This document shows, piece by piece, positions 4,771 to 22,648 of a stretch of DNA of 23,358 nt. The notes beneath the pieces were generated by a model. The model was not told where the DNA came from, ran no database searches, and was given only the letters and a program-made list of their open reading frames with translations. This stretch comes from a virus: positions 1 through 23,358 of the IMG/VR virus record IMGVR_UViG_3300031974_003820; one strand, given 5' to 3'. A program made the position numbers and the translations under genes. How positions within the stretch are numbered: position 1 is the first letter of the stretch; the number at the start of each line of letters is the position of its first letter.

Positions 4771-5528
4771 TGGCCGCAACAAAACTTTGGGAAGTGTACG
4801 ACATAGAAACGCCTTTTGAAAAGGCGGCAGTCGCGCACATGGCAAGCGTGTTTTCTGATGATCTTGGGCAATACTCGATTGTGCGCACGATAAACGATGA
4901 AACGCTTTTGACTCCCCGCATTGAGGTCAGGTTTGAGCTTGGCGACGCAATGGAGCCGATCCCGCAGCGCGGCGGCGGGGCGTCGCCATCTGCCCTTGAT
5001 TATAGAAATTTCAACGCGCAGTTTTTCGCTCGCGTAGTGACAGACAACGCGCAAGACCAAGAGGACGATCACCACAAGGCGCGCGGAACGGTGCGCCAAT
5101 GCCTCGCCGTTTCAAGTGATATTTTCAGCACAACAGGATCAGCGGGTGCGCCGCAGTTAACGGGAACGGTTAACGGAAACACTGCGCTGTCAAACGTGGT
5201 CAACGGCGACGGCACGGAGTTCAGCGACGAGCTTGCGGTTGGCGACACAATCCGGATCGAATCAAGCGCGGGAAACGATACCAAGGTTGTGCAGACAATC
5301 AACAGCAACACGCAGTTGCTCGTTACAAGTGACTTTGCTCTAAACCATAGCGGCGGCAATATCTTTCGGGTTCAGTCTTTCACATACGGGCCAGCCTTGG
5401 AATTGTTTACAGTCAACTACATCAAGCCAGAGTCAACCGTTTACGAAACTGACGGCACGTTTAACGTTTCAGAGTTGAGTTACAACATGGTGATCGGCAT
5501 CCGGTCGGACGCTTGGCCCGCGAGTTAA
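4770..5528 (+). CDS. Putative tail terminator/completion protein with inserted beta domain
   Basis: The ATG at 4770 (GGAGG at 4754-4758) is preferred over the upstream in-frame start at 4665, which would run 106 nt into the previous gene. The product is 252 aa. Residues 1-125 and 203-252 look like one domain split in two: helix KLWEVYDIETPFEKAAVAHM, then strands. Residues about 128-201 are a separate beta-rich module with 'LTGTVNGNTALSN', 'TEFSDELAVGDTIRIES' and 'TINSNTQLLVTSDFA'. Modules of this shape occur singly or repeated in other phage structural proteins. Removing it leaves about 175 aa, close to usual tail-completion proteins. The role is inferred from its place between connector and tube. 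Confidence 0.6.
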   Translation: MAATKLWEVYDIETPFEKAAVAHMASVFSDDLGQYSIVRTINDETLLTPRIEVRFELGDAMEPIPQRGGGASPSALDYRNFNAQFFARVVTDNAQDQEDDHHKARGTVRQCLAVSSDIFSTTGSAGAPQLTGTVNGNTALSNVVNGDGTEFSDELAVGDTIRIESSAGNDTKVVQTINSNTQLLVTSDFALNHSGGNIFRVQSFTYGPALELFTVNYIKPESTVYETDGTFNVSELSYNMVIGIRSDAWPAS

Positions 5529-12621: not shown

Positions 12622-13307
12622 TCTTTTGCCATTACGGAAAAGCGGGCGGCACTTGGGTCAATGAATATTTGTCTTTGATGTTGCGCCGCGAAGGCTATGC
12701 AATTCGAAACTCGTTTTACATGGGTTTAGGCAGAGACTTTACCGAGGACGAAGTGATGCACGTTGCGGATACCTGCGAAGGCTTCAAGACGTACATACAC
12801 CAACAGCATCTTTCGGTCACAAGTAAAGCCTTAGCGCACCTCAAGAGCAAAGGCTTTTGGTCGTTCATGTTTTTGCGCCCGCCTGAAGATGTCATTTGTT
12901 CAATTTATTTTTGGGCGTTGCGAAAGATTGAGGACGGGCAACCTTGCCCGATTGGCCCACACATAAACCCAACCAAAATCGACCTTGGCGATTTCTTTGA
13001 GGAGGTCGCGAAGAATCAAAAAGCACTTTGGGCATTGCCGCCTTGGGTGAATCAAGTTGATAATGTGGCGATGATTTCAGATAATAATTTCAGGGCATTC
13101 TTGCGCCAGCATTTCGAGCATGAATACAACCCCGACAAATACGACATGAAGGAGCGGCACATGAACAGATCAAACAATGAAGGCTTTGCGGAGTACGCAA
13201 GGCAAGGGCGCATTACATTGGCGCAGCAATCCGCCCTTGTGGGGTCGGATGAGTTTGCGGATTTTTCAAACCTAGCGAGGAGGCTGGGACATCGAAGGGA
13301 ATGGTGA
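12606..13307 (+). CDS. Sulfotransferase-family protein (PAPS-dependent type)
   Basis: The 233-aa protein overlaps the glycosyltransferase by 16 nt. The N-terminus FCHYGKAGGTWVNEYL (Lys12, Gly14-Gly15-Thr16) matches the 5'-phosphosulfate loop of sulfotransferases (K-x-G-G-T/S). FLRPPEDVICSIYFW has Arg91 and Ser99 in the R-x-P-x-D-x-x-x-S spacing of the 3'-phosphate-binding motif. Both are in the expected order and about 80 residues apart. His65/His68 (YIHQQHLS) could supply a catalytic base. The length is typical of small bacterial Sulfotransfer-type enzymes. There is no signal peptide, so it would act in the cytoplasm with host PAPS. Together with the preceding gene it suggests building a sulfated sugar. 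No Shine-Dalgarno; start is coupled. Confidence 0.8.
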   Translation: MREKIIFCHYGKAGGTWVNEYLSLMLRREGYAIRNSFYMGLGRDFTEDEVMHVADTCEGFKTYIHQQHLSVTSKALAHLKSKGFWSFMFLRPPEDVICSIYFWALRKIEDGQPCPIGPHINPTKIDLGDFFEEVAKNQKALWALPPWVNQVDNVAMISDNNFRAFLRQHFEHEYNPDKYDMKERHMNRSNNEGFAEYARQGRITLAQQSALVGSDEFADFSNLARRLGHRREW

Positions 13308-15111: not shown

Positions 15112-15348
15112 ATGGACAAAAAGACCGCATCAAAATTTGCGCAAGCACTTGGTTCACTTGGCAAGGCCGACGTGATCCCTGAAGGCTGGGCGACCGCAAG
15201 AGAGATTGCTGACAGTCAAGGCGTCTCTATGCCCCATATGCAAAAAAAGATTCGCGCCCTTGTAGAGTCTGGCACGGCGGAAATGCAACGGTTTAAAATC
15301 AAAACCTCGCGCGGCTTTTACCCCGTGCCGCACTACCGGATCAAATGA
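15112..15348 (+). CDS. Small winged-helix DNA-binding protein
   Basis: The 78-aa protein contains a helix-turn-helix at residues 27-54 (TAREIADSQGVSMPHMQKKI then LVESGTAE) followed by a predicted beta wing (FKIKTSRGFYPVPHYRIK). This is the layout of small MarR/GntR-like winged-helix regulators reduced to the DNA-binding domain. It lies 2 nt after the phosphoesterase gene and about 500 nt upstream of the first of four repeated promoter modules. That makes it a plausible regulator of them, which is inference. Confidence 0.65.
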   Translation: MDKKTASKFAQALGSLGKADVIPEGWATAREIADSQGVSMPHMQKKIRALVESGTAEMQRFKIKTSRGFYPVPHYRIK

Positions 15349-15612: not shown

Positions 15613-15642
15613 CCCTGAAAAAACAGGGCCAAAAATTTTTTT
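15613..15642 (+). terminator. Weak terminator at the head of promoter module 1
   Basis: CCCTG (15613-15617) pairs with CAGGG (15624-15628) around six A, and seven T follow at 15636-15642 after a 7-nt gap. It would end the transcript from the metallophosphoesterase region. The stem is short, so efficiency is uncertain. Confidence 0.45.
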
Positions 15643-15731
15643 GAAAAAAGTGAAATAATCCCTTTACACACGGGCGGCTTGCCTGTAAGCTGTAAGCACA
15701 ATGAACGAGCGCAACAAGACAAACCAAATCA
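15615..15731 (+). repeat. Repeated promoter module, copy 1
   Basis: First of four related units. Each has CTGAAAAA-CAGG or a relic of it about 85 bp before an ATG, then long A/T tracts with GAAAAAA, then a promoter, then the start of a gene. Here the start of the gene (15697-15731) is identical over 35 nt to copy 3. Confidence 0.85.
15663..15691 (+). promoter_or_regulatory. Promoter P1, sigma70-like
   Basis: TTTACA (15663-15668), 17-bp spacer, TAAGCT (15686-15691), ATG 9 nt later at 15701. A second TAAGCA at 15693 is an alternative. A-tracts upstream resemble an UP element. The shared ACAGGCAAGC motif lies in the spacer in reverse orientation (complement of 15675-15688). Confidence 0.65.
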
Positions 15732-16039
15732 AATCCGACAACAACCGCGTGAAGGTCGGCCACTCCCTAACCTTCAGCTTTGGCGAATACGACAACACCG
15801 TGATCGTGCTGGCTGGCGAAAAATACTTGCGCCACAAGCTCGGCCTTGATTGCGATGACAAGGCTTTTAATCTCTTATGCGATGTTCAAGAGGTGGAGTC
15901 CATCAACCCAATCCACTGGCGCGAGCTTACGGAATCGGAGCAACGCGCTTTTTCTGAGGAGATGGAATATCAAGCCGCCCAAGATTACATAGAGGAGCAG
16001 CAGTATCGTGAAGCTATCGGCTTTGCTGAAGGAATCTAG
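15701..16039 (+). CDS. Unknown 112-aa acidic protein (promoter module 1)
   Basis: First gene after P1, with no room for a Shine-Dalgarno between the predicted transcription start and the ATG. The protein starts MNERNKTNQI, shared exactly with the gene at 18023, then diverges. The body has VGHSLTFSFGEYDNTVIVLAGEKYLRH, probably a beta hairpin, and an acidic helical C-terminus (TESEQRAFSEEMEYQAAQDYIEEQ). No membrane segment. The acidic content would suit an anti-host protein or DNA mimic, but nothing shows this. Function unknown. Confidence 0.65.
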   Translation: MNERNKTNQIKSDNNRVKVGHSLTFSFGEYDNTVIVLAGEKYLRHKLGLDCDDKAFNLLCDVQEVESINPIHWRELTESEQRAFSEEMEYQAAQDYIEEQQYREAIGFAEGI

Positions 16040-16073
16040 TAGCAACCCCAAACCCAAACAGGAGCATAAGACA
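16040..16073 (+). promoter_or_regulatory. A/C-rich translational leader with AGGAG
   Basis: This leader is C/A-rich (AACCCCAAACCCAAAC) and ends AAGACAATG like the leaders at 17062, 18465, 20083 and 20287. It is the only one of that set with a clear AGGAG, 9 nt before the ATG. Confidence 0.55.
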
Positions 16074-16403
16074 ATGAAAATACAAAACCAATTCGGAGCA
16101 ATGGAACAGAACCCAATCAGCGAGCAGCAACTAGCAGACCGCAAGAAAGTCAAGCGGCACGTTGATTGGACGGAGCGCGGCCTTGTGATTGATCGGATCA
16201 GATTGATTGGCGACCCGTCCCCGTTCATGCCTTTCTACGATGTGAGTTATTGCACCGGACACATCAACGGCGAACCCGTCAAAGTGAGTTTGCCGTTTTC
16301 CCAAGTGCCGAAGAAATACAAAACCTTTCTTTACCAAGAAGCAAAAAAGACGGGCCAATTTATCAACGGCATATTTGACCCCGCAACCGTTTCGATCCTG
16401 TAA
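16074..16403 (+). CDS. Unknown 109-aa protein
   Basis: ATG 16074 is chosen because AGGAG and the family leader precede it; the earlier in-frame GTG at 16008 lies within the previous gene. The protein has a basic stretch (DRKKVKRHVDW), then RGLVIDRIRLIGDPSPFMPFYDVSYCTGHINGEPVKVSLPF, suggesting a small beta domain, and a C-terminal helix (KYKTFLYQEAKKTGQF). It may be a small nucleic-acid-associated protein, but there is no recognisable family. Confidence 0.65.
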   Translation: MKIQNQFGAMEQNPISEQQLADRKKVKRHVDWTERGLVIDRIRLIGDPSPFMPFYDVSYCTGHINGEPVKVSLPFSQVPKKYKTFLYQEAKKTGQFINGIFDPATVSIL

Positions 16404-16422
16404 CCCCAAACACAAACGACCA

Positions 16423-16719
16423 ATGAAAAAAGAAATCACCAAGAACGGGCTGCGCATCCTGCGCGAAGAGATCAACGGGTTTCAGATTTGGGAAACAATA
16501 CCGCGCCGCAATCACATCGGCGGCGTCATGCGCGAGGTTGGCGACGCGGTAACGATCGACGGCGAGACGTTCACAGTGACCGACCTTGCCGAAGCTGGCG
16601 CGCGTTGCCAGATCACAACCAAGCGCGTTGTGGACTACGAAACCGTAGCGGGCAAGCGCGTCCACTTCACAACGACCAAAGGCAAGACCGCCCTTGTGTC
16701 GCTCTACAAATACCACTGA
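16423..16719 (+). CDS. Unknown 98-aa beta-rich basic protein
   Basis: ATG 16423 follows an A/C-rich leader (CCCCAAACACAAACGACC) without a Shine-Dalgarno. The sequence alternates strands and turns: LRILREEINGFQIWETIP, VGDAVTIDGETFTVTDLAEAG, VHFTTTKGKTALVSLYKYH. It looks like a small all-beta protein. The stop TGA lies in the CTGAAAAAACAGG segment of promoter module 2, so the repeat begins within this gene. No function assigned. Confidence 0.65.
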   Translation: MKKEITKNGLRILREEINGFQIWETIPRRNHIGGVMREVGDAVTIDGETFTVTDLAEAGARCQITTKRVVDYETVAGKRVHFTTTKGKTALVSLYKYH

Positions 16720-16832
16720 AAAAACAGGCTCAAAAATTATTTGAAAAAAAATAAAAAAACGCTGGACAGATTACAGGCAAGCGGCTAGGGTGTACGAACA
16801 ATGAGCAACGCAACCAACAAAGTCGAAGAGAT
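16716..16832 (+). repeat. Repeated promoter module, copy 2
   Basis: Same order as copy 1: CTGAAAAAACAGG, CAAAAATTATTTGAAAAAAA, promoter, ATG at 85 nt. Its coding start is the least similar of the four (MSNATNKVEEI against MNERNKTNQI). Confidence 0.8.
16763..16791 (+). promoter_or_regulatory. Promoter P2, sigma70-like
   Basis: TGGACA (16763-16768), 17-bp spacer, TAGGGT (16786-16791), ATG 9 nt later at 16801. The motif ACAGGCAAGC is in the spacer (16773-16782) in forward orientation, 8 bp further downstream than in P3 and P4. Confidence 0.65.
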
Positions 16833-17022
16833 CAAAAACACAATCCGCAACCGTGTCGCGCAGGGTGCAAACCTGAGCGCGCTGATTGACTTGGCCCATC
16901 TACGAGCCGAGGCAACCAACGGCGGCGACGCCAAGCTGGTGCGCGCTTGCTTGCTCGATGTTTTTCAAGAGGTAAACGGAGAGCAAGCAGTTGACGCCCT
17001 ACTTGACAAGCTGGGAATGTAA
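16801..17022 (+). CDS. Unknown 73-aa helical protein (promoter module 2)
   Basis: First gene of the P2 unit, with a near-leaderless start. The protein appears entirely helical: NKVEEIKNTIRNRVAQGANLSAL, LRAEATNGGDAKLVRACLLDVFQ, GEQAVDALLDKLGM. The size and helix pattern suit a small multimeric or protein-binding factor. No DNA-binding motif, membrane segment or recognised family. Confidence 0.6.
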   Translation: MSNATNKVEEIKNTIRNRVAQGANLSALIDLAHLRAEATNGGDAKLVRACLLDVFQEVNGEQAVDALLDKLGM

Positions 17023-17061
17023 ACCAAAACCAAAAACCAAAAACCCAAACACATAAAGACA
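17023..17061 (+). promoter_or_regulatory. A/C-rich leader without Shine-Dalgarno
   Basis: Thirty-nine bases with a single G, made of CCAAAAA and CCCAAAC blocks and ending ATAAAGACAATG. The same ending is found before 18465. Likely unstructured and recognised without a Shine-Dalgarno. Confidence 0.5.
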
Positions 17062-17895
17062 ATGAAACAAATTCAACAAATCCAATCTGAGCAAAGCCAG
17101 ATCAGAAACGCAATGAGCGAAGTGCGCAACCGAGTGCAAAACGTTTTCTATTTAGATTTGCCACGCGGCCCAGTTTACAATCACCCGCAATCTGGTTTTC
17201 CTGTTCAGGATCGCATTGCCCCAGACGGCACAAGCTCAGAGGCTTTGACAGAATGCTATTACTCCGATTTTAACAGCACCGAGAAAAGCCTTTTGCGCTG
17301 GCTCACCAAATGGGAAAAGGCTGCGGGCGTTGACGCGCTCGCGCCATACGCTGAAAAGCTGAAAGCACTGCAAGCCGATCTTGAGGCCAGCAAAAAAGAA
17401 CTGGCCGAAACTCGCGCCGCAATCAAAGAGGCCAAAGCACTAAAGGCCGCAGTCAAGCAAGGCTTGCTTACTGGCCCGCTCGGCGAATGCCTCAAAGACT
17501 TCCGCCCCGAATACATCGCAAGATGTCTTGCCGTTTACGATATGCCCGATGGCGACGGTTACGAAAAAGAGGTTGTGAAATACGATCGCTCTTATCAAAA
17601 CAAAATCCGCGAAACCGTCTTTGTCAAAAAGGGAACGGGCGAATGGGAGCGCAAAAAGGCGGAGGTTATCGAGTGCGCAAATCATTCGGTCGATGCCTAC
17701 ATTTACAAGCTCGCCGAAAAGATCGGCAAGAAAGTCACAGCCGCCAGCATCAAAGGCAGCTTGTGGGATTACTCAATCCTGACCGTCACTTGCGAGGGCG
17801 GAGAGGTGCAGCAGTGGCGCACGCAGTGCATCATAAATGCGCGCTACGAATACAACACCATTTTCAACCAGTGGCCCACACGCCGAATCGACTAG
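17062..17895 (+). CDS. Unknown 277-aa coiled-coil protein
   Basis: The largest gene of the accessory region. The N-terminus is Gln-rich (MKQIQQIQSEQSQIRN). Residues about 70-95 have STEKSLLRWLTKWEKAAG; residues about 100-140 form a coiled coil (ALQADLEASKKELAETRAAI) followed by KEAKALKAAVKQGLL. The C-terminal half (VTAASIKGSLWDYSILTVTCEGG, then YEYNTIFNQWPTRR) looks like a folded alpha/beta domain. No signal peptide or catalytic motif recognised. It is co-transcribed with the 73-aa gene and followed by a strong terminator. Confidence 0.65.
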   Translation: MKQIQQIQSEQSQIRNAMSEVRNRVQNVFYLDLPRGPVYNHPQSGFPVQDRIAPDGTSSEALTECYYSDFNSTEKSLLRWLTKWEKAAGVDALAPYAEKLKALQADLEASKKELAETRAAIKEAKALKAAVKQGLLTGPLGECLKDFRPEYIARCLAVYDMPDGDGYEKEVVKYDRSYQNKIRETVFVKKGTGEWERKKAEVIECANHSVDAYIYKLAEKIGKKVTAASIKGSLWDYSILTVTCEGGEVQQWRTQCIINARYEYNTIFNQWPTRRID

Positions 17896-17901
17896 GCAAA
17901 C

Positions 17902-17930
17902 GGGGGGGCGGCTAGGCCGCCCCCCCCTTA
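17902..17930 (+). terminator. Strong GC hairpin terminator before promoter module 3
   Basis: Perfect 11-bp stem of seven G then CGGC (17902-17912) with its complement (17916-17926), three-base loop, then TTAAAAAG. The T run is short. It ends the P2 transcript where copy 3 of the module has lost its own small hairpin. Confidence 0.75.
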
Positions 17931-17937
17931 AAAAGCC

Positions 17938-18053
17938 CACAAAAACAGGCTCAAAAAAAAATCGAAAAAAAGTGAGAATCAGTGTTGACAGGCAAGCGGC
18001 CAGCGTGTAGGGTAAACCCACAATGAACGAGCGCAACAAGACAAACCAAATCA
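17938..18053 (+). repeat. Repeated promoter module, copy 3
   Basis: The first bases (CACAAAAACAGG) keep the second arm but not the first arm of the small hairpin seen in copies 1 and 4. Positions 18019-18053 are identical to 15697-15731. Confidence 0.85.
17985..18013 (+). promoter_or_regulatory. Promoter P3, sigma70-like
   Basis: Consensus TTGACA (17985-17990), 17-bp spacer, TAGGGT (18008-18013), ATG 9 nt later at 18023. ACAGGCAAGC overlaps the -35 end (17988-17997). The preceding 40 bases are A-tract-rich. Confidence 0.75.
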
Positions 18054-18421
18054 CCAAGCAAGACCTCGACGATCTGAAGATCGACAAAAGCAAGCCGATT
18101 GAAATCGCTTGCACCTTTATGCAGGTTGACGCGCTCGGCCCTGAGCAAATGCGACGCAAAGCAATGCGCGCTTTCAAAGCCGCGCATATGCTCAAAAAAA
18201 ATAGGAAATGGCAGGTTGTCCACGGCGAGCTTGACGCATACGGAAACTTGATCCCGCAAGACCAAACTGATTACCCAACACGCAAGGCCGCACTTGAGTC
18301 AATAAGCTGCTGGGAAAACGTAACCAGATATCGCCGCGGTGAGAGTTGGATTTATACAGGCGAAAATTGCGACGGGTTCAAGCTCGCTTGTGAAGTAAGA
18401 AAAAACACTTTTGAATTTTAA
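18023..18421 (+). CDS. Unknown 132-aa basic protein (promoter module 3)
   Basis: Starts MNERNKTNQIT, identical to the 15701 gene for ten residues, then unrelated. Residues 30-65 contain CTFMQVDALGPEQMRRKAMRAF and AAHMLKKNRKW, a basic helical segment; the rest (PTRKAALESISCW, YRRGESWIYTGENCDGFKLACEV) looks like a small alpha/beta domain. The N-terminal ten residues are probably a by-product of the repeated start module and not a functional signal. No known family. Confidence 0.65.
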   Translation: MNERNKTNQITKQDLDDLKIDKSKPIEIACTFMQVDALGPEQMRRKAMRAFKAAHMLKKNRKWQVVHGELDAYGNLIPQDQTDYPTRKAALESISCWENVTRYRRGESWIYTGENCDGFKLACEVRKNTFEF

Positions 18422-18464
18422 CGACCAAACCAAAAAAACCAAACAGCAAACACACATAAAGACA
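18422..18464 (+). promoter_or_regulatory. A/C-rich leader without Shine-Dalgarno
   Basis: Forty-three bases with three G. It contains AAACAGCAAACACACATAAAGACA directly before ATG 18465, matching the leader family. Confidence 0.5.
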
Positions 18465-18836
18465 ATGAACACCAAAGAACTAAAAAACAAATCCGACGAA
18501 TTGCTAAAGCAAAAAGTATATGAAATCCTAGAGACATTCTTTACGAAGCAGGGTCTTGGAAAAAAAATTGCTTGCGATAAAAGTCTGATCAACTCCCTGC
18601 AAAAAGAGTTGGATGTTGTGCTGAGTCGGCCAACCCTATTCGATATTGAAACCAAGCGCAAAGACTTGATGAAAAGTCTCAAGGTTTGGGATACTTACTC
18701 TCCAGAGCATGAGTCAACTCTTTCGCAACTGCATGATCTTTGCACCGATAGTTTTTTCTGGCTTAACAGAAAAGAGCAGTCCGAATTTTGCGCGACGTCT
18801 TACGAATTGGAAGAGCAAATTGAAAACGAAGTTTAA
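18465..18836 (+). CDS. Unknown 123-aa helical protein, AT-rich gene
   Basis: ATG 18465 follows the family leader; the in-frame start at 18411 lies in the previous gene. The protein is helical and charged (KELKNKSDELLKQKVYEILETFF, SLINSLQKELDVVL, then CTDSFFWLNRKEQSEFCATSYELEEQIENEV). By hand count the gene is about 40% GC, against 50% or more in the neighbours, and uses AT-rich codons (ATA, CTA, TTA) more. That suggests later arrival. No function recognised. Confidence 0.6.
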   Translation: MNTKELKNKSDELLKQKVYEILETFFTKQGLGKKIACDKSLINSLQKELDVVLSRPTLFDIETKRKDLMKSLKVWDTYSPEHESTLSQLHDLCTDSFFWLNRKEQSEFCATSYELEEQIENEV

Positions 18837-18849
18837 CGGAGGGCGAATA

Positions 18850-18999
18850 ATGAACAAAAAAGAATGCCTAGAAGAGATATTAAAGGACATTAAAAGTTAC
18901 GTTGAAGTGTACCATGAAGATGAAGAAAAAGCGCAATCTCTTTGCGATGATTTGCAGCAAATTGTGATTCTTAACTTTGTGAGAATGAAAGGCAAATAA
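18850..18999 (+). CDS. 49-aa acidic helical protein
   Basis: ATG 18850 has a clear GGAGG (18839-18843), unlike most genes here. The product (MNKKECLEEILKDIKSYVEVY, then HEDEEKAQSLCDDLQQIVIL) is acidic and helical. It is as AT-rich as the preceding gene, and the two may have come together. The TAA overlaps the next ATG (TAATG). An earlier in-frame start at 18709 would overlap the previous gene and is not needed. Function unknown. Confidence 0.55.
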   Translation: MNKKECLEEILKDIKSYVEVYHEDEEKAQSLCDDLQQIVILNFVRMKGK

Positions 19000-19649
19000 T
19001 GATTGAACCGACCGAACTAATCAACGGCAAGCCGATCAAGCGGCAAGGCGTTTGCGGCGTGATCGCAACCGCAAACGTGACAGGCCGCACGCCTCAAGAT
19101 GTGTTTGACCTGTTCAAAAAATCGCGCGGCCTAGACTGCGGCAAACGCTGGCGCGGCGGCCTTCACAACTGGGCATTGCTCAAGATGTTGGACAGGCTCA
19201 AGGTCAAGCACGAGCGCATAAAGGTTGAACGTTGCACGCTGCAAAAGTTTGCGGATTGGCACGCAGCCAAAGGCCAGACTTACATCGTGAACGTTACAAA
19301 TCATTACGTCGTTGTGCGCAACGGTCTGATCGCAGACCAAAGCGGAGCCAAGCCGATCCTTGAAGCATGGTCGCGCCGCCGCTTTGTTCAAAAAGTTTGG
19401 CACATTAAAAACCCAGCGATTGACAAACAGGCCGCCAGCGTGGCAACCTCGCCCGCTATGGAAAAACCAACAGTGACCGAAGCCGCCCGCCAATACCTCG
19501 CCGAGATCGGACGCAAGGGCGGCAAGAACAACAAGCACCAAGCCAAGGCCGCGCAAACGTACTGGGCGCGACTGACGCCAGAACAGCGCAGCGAAGAGAT
19601 GCGCAAGCGTGCCGAGAAACGCCTGAAAAACAGGGCCGAAAAAAAATGA
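18999..19649 (+). CDS. Papain-like/C39-like cysteine peptidase candidate with basic tail
   Basis: The 216-aa protein has two parts. Residues 1-135: GVCGVIATANVTGRTPQDVF with Cys19 at the start of a helix, GGLHNWALLKML, TYIVNVTNHYVVVRNGLIADQSG with His102 and Asp113. This Cys, then 'V/G-H-Y/W-V-x-V-x-x-G-x-x-x-D' pattern is that of papain-fold peptidases such as C39-like and phage small peptidases. Residues 155-216 are basic with 'LAEIGRKGGKNNKHQAKAAQ' and 'LTPEQRSEEMRKRAEKR', a nucleic-acid-binding-like tail. The substrate is unknown; processing of a host or phage protein is possible. The stop falls within promoter module 4. Confidence 0.6.
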   Translation: MIEPTELINGKPIKRQGVCGVIATANVTGRTPQDVFDLFKKSRGLDCGKRWRGGLHNWALLKMLDRLKVKHERIKVERCTLQKFADWHAAKGQTYIVNVTNHYVVVRNGLIADQSGAKPILEAWSRRRFVQKVWHIKNPAIDKQAASVATSPAMEKPTVTEAARQYLAEIGRKGGKNNKHQAKAAQTYWARLTPEQRSEEMRKRAEKRLKNRAEKK

Positions 19650-19737
19650 AAAAAAGTGAGGAACAGAGTTGACAGGCAAGCGACTAGCGTTTAAGGTGCT
19701 CCCACGATGAACGAAGTAAACAAGACAAACGAGATCG
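19623..19737 (+). repeat. Repeated promoter module, copy 4
   Basis: Begins CCTGAAAAACAGGGCC inside the last codons of the cysteine peptidase gene, then GAAAAAAAATGAAAAAAAGTGAG, promoter and ATG at 84 nt. The coding start (MNEVNKTNEI) is a diverged form of MNERNKTNQI. Confidence 0.85.
19669..19697 (+). promoter_or_regulatory. Promoter P4, sigma70-like
   Basis: Consensus TTGACA (19669-19674), 17-bp spacer, TAAGGT (19692-19697), ATG 9 nt later at 19707. ACAGGCAAGC overlaps the -35 end (19672-19681), as in P3. Confidence 0.75.
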
Positions 19738-20048
19738 AAACCCAACGCCAAATACTTCGCGCCGAGTGCCTGAAGGTTCAACAAGTCGAAAATGTTATAG
19801 GCTTTTCAAGCTACTCCGCGAGAGACAGCATTTTGACCATGCCGACCACTTGCTTGATTGACCCAGCCGCAACGAAAGAAAGCCGCAAGGTGATCCGAAA
19901 AGCCGCACGGGAGTTGATCGAACTTGAAGGGCGGGAAGTGATCACTGGAGGTCAAAACTGCTGGAGCTATGCGACAGGCGAGCGTCACGCAATCGCTAAA
20001 CTTTGCGACGAATCAACCAAGATCGGCTTTTTAAAATCAGACCGATAG
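19707..20048 (+). CDS. Unknown 113-aa protein (promoter module 4)
   Basis: Starts MNEVNKTNEIETQRQ, related to the other module starts. The body has a helix (ILRAECLKVQQVENVIG), 'SARDSILTMPTTCLIDPAATKESRKVIRKAARELIELEG' and 'GGQNCWSYATGERHAIAKLCDES'. Four cysteines, no clear CxxC pair. No membrane segment or known family. It heads a unit with the 52-aa and 92-aa genes that follow. Confidence 0.65.
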   Translation: MNEVNKTNEIETQRQILRAECLKVQQVENVIGFSSYSARDSILTMPTTCLIDPAATKESRKVIRKAARELIELEGREVITGGQNCWSYATGERHAIAKLCDESTKIGFLKSDR

Positions 20049-20060
20049 CAAACCAAAAAT

Positions 20061-20086
20061 AAACCCTAAACAGCAAAAGACAATGA
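20061..20086 (+). repeat. 26-nt leader repeat, copy 1
   Basis: Identical to 20265-20290 and ends with ATGA of the 52-aa gene. Contains CCCTAAACAGCAAAAGACA. No Shine-Dalgarno. Confidence 0.85.
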
Positions 20087-20241: not shown

Positions 20242-20264
20242 ACCAAGAGCAAACGACCAACCCA

Positions 20265-20290
20265 AAACCCTAAACAGCAAAAGACAATGA
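20265..20290 (+). repeat. 26-nt leader repeat, copy 2
   Basis: Identical to 20061-20086. It directly precedes and includes the start of the 92-aa gene at 20287. Confidence 0.85.
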
Positions 20291-20565: not shown

Positions 20566-20588
20566 ACCAAACACCAAACCCAAACAGC

Positions 20589-21611: not shown

Positions 21612-21969
21612 AGGCGACAACATTCTTGCGATTGATTTTGACGGCACGATAATTGTGCAAGGCTCTGGCTTGAGCCGCGAGAGATTAGAAAAGCGACCGA
21701 TGGCGGGCGCAGTCCATGCGCTGCAAATGTTGCACGCTCAACGCTGGCGCATCGTTGTCTTTAGCTGCCGCGCAAGGGATGAGCAAGGGCGTGCGCAGAT
21801 CATTAACTGGCTGAGACGTTACGGCATTGACAATTTGGTTGAGGAAATCACCGCGCAAAAACCTTGGGCAAAGTATTACATCGACGACCGCGCGATTGCG
21901 TTTGATAATTGGGCAAGCGTCTTGGAAAGGCTAACGGATGAAGGGCAAGAAACTGATGGGCATATTTGA
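21604..21969 (+). CDS. HAD-superfamily phosphatase
   Basis: The 121-aa protein has HAD motif I IDFDGTI (nucleophile Asp11, acid-base Asp13), motif II VVFSCR (Ser54), and motif III/IV region QKPWAKYYIDDRAI with Lys86 or Lys90 and Asp94/Asp95. It is a minimal HAD domain without a cap, like small phage and bacterial phosphatases related to the kinase-phosphatase DNA end-repair enzyme, so nucleotide or nucleic-acid 3'-phosphate is a possible substrate. Overlaps the methyltransferase-like gene by 32 nt if that one begins at 21938. Confidence 0.8.
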   Translation: MSEGDNILAIDFDGTIIVQGSGLSRERLEKRPMAGAVHALQMLHAQRWRIVVFSCRARDEQGRAQIINWLRRYGIDNLVEEITAQKPWAKYYIDDRAIAFDNWASVLERLTDEGQETDGHI

Positions 21970-22648
21970 TTGGTCGCCGCTTGAAGAGTTTGCGCCGATC
22001 TGGCTGACCGATCGGCTGGTTGTGATCTATTCAGACAGATGCGAAAAAAAAATAAGCAAAAACGCGATCCCGATAAAAATCAATCGGTCGTTTACGTTTG
22101 GCACTGGCGGCCATCCTTCAACGCGCGGCGCAGTTCACGCGATTATCTACGCCGTGCGCCAAAAATATGTTGACCCAACAAACGCGACGTTCGTTGATCT
22201 CGGCGACACGTCTGGGTTGATGTCTATCATTGCGAATCACATGGGGTTCAATCCGGTTTATCTGGCAGCCGAAGAGGAAAAAACCCAAGACGAGGCCGAG
22301 GCCAACATTGTGTTGAACGATTGCGCCGCCATGATCACCGAACCCTCAACCCTTTTCGGCGTCGCGCAATATCACCGAGAGACGAATCAAGTGTTTGACG
22401 TGCGGCCAGAAATTATTTGCACAATTCAAGGCGGGTCGCCGATGGTTAGACAGTATTTGTCCGATTGCTATGATCTAATTGTTGACGGCGGCGTGCTTAT
22501 CTGGGCGGGGCATCAACCCAAGGCGACAGGCAAAACACGCGCGGCCCTTGAAGAATACTTTGACGACATCGAGCATTTAATTTGTGACGGTTGGCCCGTT
22601 GCGATTTGTAGAAAAACAAAACTAAAGGAACCAAAAGAAAATGAGTAA
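21938..22648 (+). CDS. PrmA-like methyltransferase, altered motif I
   Basis: The 236-aa protein has FGTGGHPSTRGAVHAI (54-69), close to the F-G-T-G-x-H-P-T-T signature of ribosomal protein L11 methyltransferase PrmA, then ATFVDLGDTSGLMSIIANHMGF where PrmA has the SAM-binding D-x-G-C-G-S-G motif, AAEEEKTQDEAEANIVLND like the motif II/acidic loop, and DLIVDGGVLIWAGHQ near the end like the strand 5/6 part. The classic glycines are partly replaced (DLGDTSG), so catalysis is uncertain. Start could also be ATG 21956. It lacks PrmA's N-terminal substrate-binding domain, so the target is not evidently L11. Confidence 0.65.
   Translation: MKGKKLMGIFDWSPLEEFAPIWLTDRLVVIYSDRCEKKISKNAIPIKINRSFTFGTGGHPSTRGAVHAIIYAVRQKYVDPTNATFVDLGDTSGLMSIIANHMGFNPVYLAAEEEKTQDEAEANIVLNDCAAMITEPSTLFGVAQYHRETNQVFDVRPEIICTIQGGSPMVRQYLSDCYDLIVDGGVLIWAGHQPKATGKTRAALEEYFDDIEHLICDGWPVAICRKTKLKEPKENE

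Follow-up and report, generated by a model that had tools for sequence, protein, structure and literature searches.

A promoter cassette that may set the start codons of small genes is repeated in a 23,358-base IMG/VR virus record, IMGVR_UViG_3300031974_003820, the whole of which is called the window here. The window is a fragment of a marine siphovirus-type phage whose host probably belongs to Verrucomicrobiota; its portal, major head, tape-measure and tail-fibre genes are those of a siphovirus. Four copies of the cassette lie on its + strand, and it is likely that they represent a mobile unit of promoter, operator and leaderless start that heads small ORFan genes.

All four units have the same order from 5' to 3': a hairpin remnant, A-tracts, a TTGACA-like -35 element, 17 bp, a TAnnnT -10 element, 9 nt and ATG. 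A previous sequence-only reading had placed such units before the genes at 15701, 16801, 18023 and 19707, and the positions, both hexamers, the 17 bp, the 9 nt and the ATG are all confirmed. Repeat search and alignment identify the units as paralogous repeats. Their parts are the following.

15613..15628, + strand: short hairpin CCCTG-AAAAAA-CAGGG with which unit 1 begins (sequence, fold)
15629..15662, + strand: A/T-tract region of unit 1, apparently UP-element-like (sequence, alignment)
15663..15668, + strand: -35 element TTTACA of unit 1, followed by 17 bp
15686..15691, + strand: -10 element TAAGCT of unit 1, 9 nt before the ATG at 15701
16714..16800, + strand: whole of unit 2, with hairpin remnant, A-tracts and promoter (sequence)
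16763..16768 and 16786..16791, + strand: -35 element TGGACA and, after 17 bp, -10 element TAGGGT of unit 2, 9 nt before the ATG at 16801
17935..18022, + strand: whole of unit 3, with hairpin remnant, A-tracts and promoter (sequence)
17985..17990 and 18008..18013, + strand: -35 element TTGACA and, after 17 bp, -10 element TAGGGT of unit 3, 9 nt before the ATG at 18023
19620..19706, + strand: whole of unit 4, with hairpin CCTG-AAAAA-CAGG, A-tracts and promoter (sequence)
19669..19674 and 19692..19697, + strand: -35 element TTGACA and, after 17 bp, -10 element TAAGGT of unit 4, 9 nt before the ATG at 19707

This arrangement is not expected by chance. The pattern TTGACA (at most one mismatch)-17-TAnnnT-d-ATG, with d from 0 to 30 and an open reading frame (ORF) of at least 50 codons, matches the window exactly four times, always at d = 9, and 300 dinucleotide shuffles give a top count of 1 at any single distance and a mean total of 0.06. 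A generic sigma-70 scan misses the four promoters because it requires four of six matches in the -10 element. Base 7 after the -10 element is A in 4/4 units, so that a transcript starting there would have a 3-nt leader.

Related viruses show which part of this geometry is constant. Five viral records were collected through the phosphoesterase encoded in the window, and more through the head protein and the terminase. The cassette is common to the window and the records G001, G002 and G003, which form a near clade of about 51% G+C content. A sister lineage (G004 and G005), with a phosphoesterase 74% identical and a G+C content of 36%, has a cassette of its own, TTTTTTGTTTACA-N16/17-TAnnnT-6 nt-ATGCTTAACGGCACTAATAACACTGAA. 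G001 and G002 add nine further copies, eight of them at 9 nt and one at 12 nt; the L020 copy stands at 8 nt and those of L111 at 8 and 9 nt. A single orthologous locus, between terminase and portal, has 9 nt in G001, 12 nt in G002 and 8 nt in L020 and L111. The sister lineage has 6 nt in most copies, with single copies at 7 and 9 nt; where the distance is 6 nt, base 7 after the -10 element is the A of ATG itself. A strictly invariant spacing of exactly 9 nt, as proposed at first, is therefore rejected. Free variation of the spacing in related genomes, which had been named as its refutation, is not seen either: the distances stay in a band of 6-12 nt. The constant is thus a -10 element within 6-12 nt of ATG, with a predicted leader of 0-6 nt and without a Shine-Dalgarno (SD) sequence.

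The same comparison bears on the possibility that the -35 and -10 elements have been miscalled, with the conserved block being an operator or another binding site and the true promoter lying in the upstream A-tracts, some 40-60 nt of leader away from ATG. The -10 hexamers are indeed far from TATAAT, and the A-tracts are rich in AT-rich hexamers. However, G005 has TTTACA-17-TATATT, with a near-consensus -10 element, at the equivalent place, and the G001 cassettes include TTGACA-17-TATGCT and TGGACA-17-TATCGT. Such a miscall is very improbable.

An SD core between -20 and -4 is absent from 19 of the 22 cassettes, and in the other three it is an AAGG within the promoter sequence; 6 of the 8 late genes in the window have one. 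Leaderless genes, whose mRNA begins at the start codon or within a few nt of it, are marked by a positionally concentrated TA-like signal (TAnnnT) about 10-15 bp upstream of the start, without SD (PMC3160421). The cassettes, besides lacking the SD core, have the hexamer beginning 15 nt before ATG in 4/4 units and 12 nt before it in the sister lineage. The TA-like signal is described as a feature of host genomes, whereas here it is packed as a dispersed phage repeat. The claim that a dispersed, repeated cassette brings its -10 element so near ATG that the mRNA would be leaderless or nearly so is supported, and relatives carry copies before unrelated genes.

The repeat does not stop at ATG. It extends about ten codons into the gene as an Asn-rich, A+C-rich and unstructured stretch, with the first residues MNERNKTNQI in the genes at 15701 and 18023 and MNEVNKTNEI in that at 19707. 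The headed genes are these.

15701..16039, + strand: small ORF, function unassigned; its first 10 or so codons (15701-15731) are part of the cassette
16801..17022, + strand: 73-residue ORF, function unassigned, headed by unit 2 (sequence comparison)
18023..18421, + strand: 132-residue ORF headed by unit 3; only about the first 28 residues are common with the corresponding gene of G002
19707..20048, + strand: 113-residue ORF headed by unit 4; absent from G002

The window and G001 cease to be homologous at 15733 and 16821, which are 33 and 21 bp inside genes, and homology with G002 ends at 18099. The end of the conserved unit therefore does not coincide with ATG but falls within the gene, at about codon 7-26. 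Behind the cassettes of the relatives, the gene bodies are mutually unrelated; when the first 14 residues are removed from the module proteins of G000, G001, G002 and G005, the only similarity left is that of two orthologous pairs and a remnant of 14 residues. In G005, the differences between the shared starts of the copies are an in-frame deletion of one codon and several changes at third positions, a pattern expected of translated tags. Codons 2-11 of the near-clade cassette genes are 81% A+C versus 60% in other genes, and the first 45 nt fold with -0.35 versus -5.73 kcal/mol.

Two arrangements in relatives touch this tag and the leader. At L009:12795-12835 in G005, a cassette stands ahead of a 10-codon mini-ORF (MLNGINKNTN-stop, 12795-12827) whose stop lies 8 nt before the next ATG. 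This suggests translational coupling, and it looks as if the tag by itself recruited ribosomes. At L006:15151-15274 in G002, the counterpart of the 19707 gene is absent and the cassette is fused to the CA-rich leader that belongs to the following gene, apparently by deletion; this natural leadered version is the sole copy seen with a long leader.

Mosaicism breakpoints at module ends and unrelated bodies behind the modules would also suit an element that serves mainly recombination or mobility, such as a cassette of the promoter-early stem-loop (PeSL) kind or a mobile-element remnant, with promoter activity being secondary. The upstream edge carries a hairpin remnant that could belong to such an element. 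This CTGAAAAA-CAGG element forms a small, weak hairpin; in unit 1, together with an adjacent A5/T7 hairpin, the fold reaches -8.8 kcal/mol (z -2.7). A role of the hairpin as a terminator was considered and rejected, the fold being weak and the terminator signature absent; no terminator-like site was found on the + strand at the units. Against a mobility element, moreover, stand the absence of a visible transposase gene, the strict orientation of the modules, which always precede ATG, and promoter hexamers that are retained while other positions diverge. This explanation is improbable.

Each unit also contains a site with dyad symmetry that overlaps the stretch from -35 to -10; its idealised form is ACAGGCAAGC-G-GCTTGCCTGT.

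15666..15686, + strand: dyad of unit 1, ACACACGGGCGGCTTGCCTGT, 6/10 pairs (sequence)
16773..16793, + strand: dyad of unit 2, 7 nt closer to ATG than in the other units
17988..18008, + strand: dyad of unit 3 (sequence)
19672..19692, + strand: dyad of unit 4 (sequence)

On the + strand of the window, scores of at least 17/21 for this site occur at the cassettes only. Near-clade copies have 6-9 of 10 symmetric pairs, versus a background of about 2% for at least 6. The better half-site is the right one in the unit before 15701 and the left one in the other units. The dyad is operator-like and is probably the binding site of a protein, probably a repressor. The sequence-only reading had overlooked this site, as well as the coding tail that the copies have in common and the likely identity of the host. 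A candidate for the binder is encoded nearby.

15112..15348, + strand: 78-residue protein, predicted winged-helix, beside the phosphoesterase (predicted structure)

This protein is kept in both cassette-bearing lineages with 43% identity. Its model has a mean pLDDT of 84.5 and resembles winged-helix transcription factors most closely among PDB structures (E 3e-3).

The probable host is indicated by the terminase. Among genome contigs, TerL matches only two Verrucomicrobia metagenome-assembled genomes, at 33% identity, and deeper terminase searches give better matches within the same phylum. Alignment of the major capsid protein with genome contigs and its comparison with phages gave no match, and the relatives have no tRNA genes to serve as host markers. 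Some Verrucomicrobia are scarce in SD sequences (PMC10783764). In 70 genomes of the order of G174, which is among the best terminase matches, ATG stands 6-9 nt after TTGAC-17/19-TAnnnT in 993 cases versus 492 cases for 18-21 nt, with an excess in 59/70 genomes, and the reversed-pattern controls are equal (634 versus 637). In four Verrucomicrobiota genomes, crude gene prediction gave a hint in one only, and these counts supersede it. The excess of -10 elements close to ATG suggests that the host order itself probably makes habitual use of leaderless starts, which the phage exploits. Such promoters, leaderless or nearly so, are probably exploited by unrelated phages as well.

One such phage may be P8625 (KP792622; PMC4642752), a lytic siphovirus in culture that infects a marine Puniceicoccales strain. 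Like the cassette, it has TTGACA-17-TATnnG-7 nt-ATG before the coding sequences at 5448, 10772 and 15594, each with a dyad of the type GTATCCA-N5-TGGATAC 2-3 nt before ATG. Unlike in the window, the dyad is of another sequence and stands mainly before virion-region genes, the -10 elements have no final T, and TerL is only about 21% identical to that of the window. Because the -10 elements end without T, the parallel is suggestive only. At 5426, 10750, 15573 and 17515 of P8625 (L108), the 19-bp dyad lies 2-7 nt before annotated starts, and at these sites a TTGACA-like hexamer is found 17-18 nt upstream of a -10-like hexamer. The part of the genome paper that is accessible (PMC4642752) does not mention the 19-bp dyad.

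An ordinary set of repeated early promoters under one repressor would account for much of this. The short distance between the -10 element and ATG would then be inherited and functionless, and translation would follow an ordinary or downstream route. The copies are recognisable paralogues, the dyad is typical of an operator, and one orthologous locus tolerates 8, 9 and 12 nt. However, the end of the dyad block is 14 nt from ATG in most copies and 7 nt in the unit before 16801 and its relatives, with the distances among -35, -10 and ATG unmoved. Descent alone is therefore hard to sustain, and the geometry is apparently selected. Moreover, the sister lineage keeps 6 nt with a different cassette sequence, the SD sequence is absent, changes in the tag preserve the frame, and the host order has an excess of like geometry. 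The ordinary-promoter explanation is accordingly unlikely, though it deserves more weight than the other two alternatives.

A leaderless-start cassette could operate as follows. Host RNA polymerase would initiate at the A 7 nt past the -10 element, so that the transcript has about 3 nt (ACA or ACG) ahead of the start codon, and 70S ribosomes would initiate on the leaderless or near-leaderless AUG, aided by the CA-rich first codons. A DNA-binding protein of phage or host, sitting at the dyad, would place all copies under joint control. Each copy stands at the head of a small ORFan gene or short operon, whose downstream genes have a different leader, CA-rich and mostly lacking SD. Recombination between copies, with its seam within the first codons, would exchange gene bodies behind a constant start. 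A more specific version is a plug-in cassette, in which an operator-controlled promoter and a leaderless start are joined to a coding translation enhancer, the shared N-terminal tag, with the recombination seam in the tag. This version is possible but rather less than even in its chances; if true, any ORF that enters behind the tag would come under regulated expression and would not have to bring a ribosome-binding site.

Several points weigh against the leaderless-cassette interpretation. Since the units are paralogous, their equal spacing comes partly from shared descent and is not fully independent evidence, and the transcription start is a prediction. The -35 and -10 elements were called by their likeness to those of E. 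coli sigma-70, and TAGGGT and TAAGCT are weak -10 elements. The dyad is imperfect, with 6-7/10 pairs in the window and only a weak form in G005, and its binder is putative. The effect of tag composition is significant in one lineage only, not in G005, and the genes compared are non-independent. As for the host, the terminase that points to it is only 33% similar to genome sequences, and the enrichment in the host order is about twofold and based on crude counts. Finally, the cassette was found in few records only, and relatives with 49% phosphoesterase identity are without it.

Within the window, a metallophosphoesterase gene and a run of small ORFs of unassigned function lie 3' of the virion genes, and all four units sit there. 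In G002, the longest close relative (34.3 kb), the genes that come next encode RecT, a PD-(D/E)XK nuclease, a methyltransferase, RusA and a replication-initiation protein. Its gene order therefore places the units directly ahead of recombination and replication genes, and the cassette-headed genes are presumably early genes. The inner genes of the operons often have a third type of start, a CA-rich and mostly non-SD leader, AAACCCWAAACAGCAAAAGACA-ATG, ending in AAAGACA-ATG. It is a second start signal that is repeated, and it differs from the SD leaders of the late genes.

16044-16073, 17023-17061, 20052-20082, 20256-20286 and 20566-20588, window: CA-rich leaders of inner genes

More distant relatives are without the cassette; at L191:16988-19967 there are instead GTTTGGTTT-type repeats, which are CA-rich leaders when read on the opposite strand. 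At 21938-22648 the window encodes a PrmA-like methyltransferase (PF06325, E 1.5e-15), possibly a phage enzyme acting on the translation machinery.

The exact module consensus has zero matches in the viral contig collection, and looser patterns match only in relatives already known. Among wider relatives, the cassette was not seen in the TerL regions read or in the lineage with 49% phosphoesterase identity, and its universality in the phage family is rejected. An Rfam search of the unit region found nothing.

Several known systems share parts of this organisation. A leaderless start is known in phage from lambda cI; CA repeats downstream of the start boost leaderless translation, and greater distance from the 5' end lowers it (PMC9031893). 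Cluster O mycobacteriophages have predicted leaderless promoters and, in the same genome, a dispersed 17-bp palindrome (PMC4351075). These palindromes are mostly away from promoters, whereas here dyad, promoter and start form one unit. L5-type stoperators are 13-bp sites in termination and silencing that are not at promoters (PMC4351075), whereas the + strand dyad sites of at least 17/21 in the window are at promoters only. Each part is known singly, but no description of a shuffled unit that unites promoter, dyad, leaderless start and coding tag was found in the literature searched. This combination suggests that leaderless initiation of the host, a member of a phylum in which some bacteria are SD-scarce, serves its phages as an assembly principle for gene acquisition. 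Promoter and first codons bring the start signal along, and an acquired gene body needs none itself. Gene shuffling behind fixed starts thus becomes testable, the similar geometry of the cultured pair P8625/IMCC8625 is open to assay, and in uncultured verrucophages the cassette can be searched for as a signature that helps to assign hosts and to correct start codons.

The closest counterparts are two dispersed elements. The extended start-associated sequence (ESAS) of Cluster K phages is dispersed before the starts of non-structural genes of different families and combines a SigA-like promoter (17-18 bp) with an imperfect inverted repeat, and the start-associated sequence (SAS) is a 13-bp element, GGGATAGGAGCCC, 3-7 bp before the start (PMC3203893, PMC11373665). 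Like the ESAS, the units described here are dispersed sigma-70 promoters with a dyad over -35 to -10 before starts. Cluster K SAS genes are leadered because the SAS contains an SD core; unlike ESAS and SAS, the units have no SD, have their -10 element 6-12 nt from ATG and continue into the coding sequence. The SAS sequence GGGATAGGAGCCC has no match at the units, and elsewhere only four three-mismatch matches, which is the chance level. In T4-type phages, PeSLs are repeated cassettes of a promoter and a stem-loop terminator linked to gene shuffling (Arbiol 2010, Comeau 2014, as cited in PMC4503421). The comparison with T4 made by the sequence-only reading holds for the repeated intergenic promoter motif (four in the window, more in relatives), but the hairpin is small, the terminator was not found, and an operator-like dyad and a leaderless start are present instead. 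The breakpoints at 15733, 16821 and 18099 and the unrelated bodies behind shared starts are compatible with PeSL-like gene shuffling. By analogy, the cassette appears to function like T4 PeSLs and Cluster K ESAS while belonging to neither.

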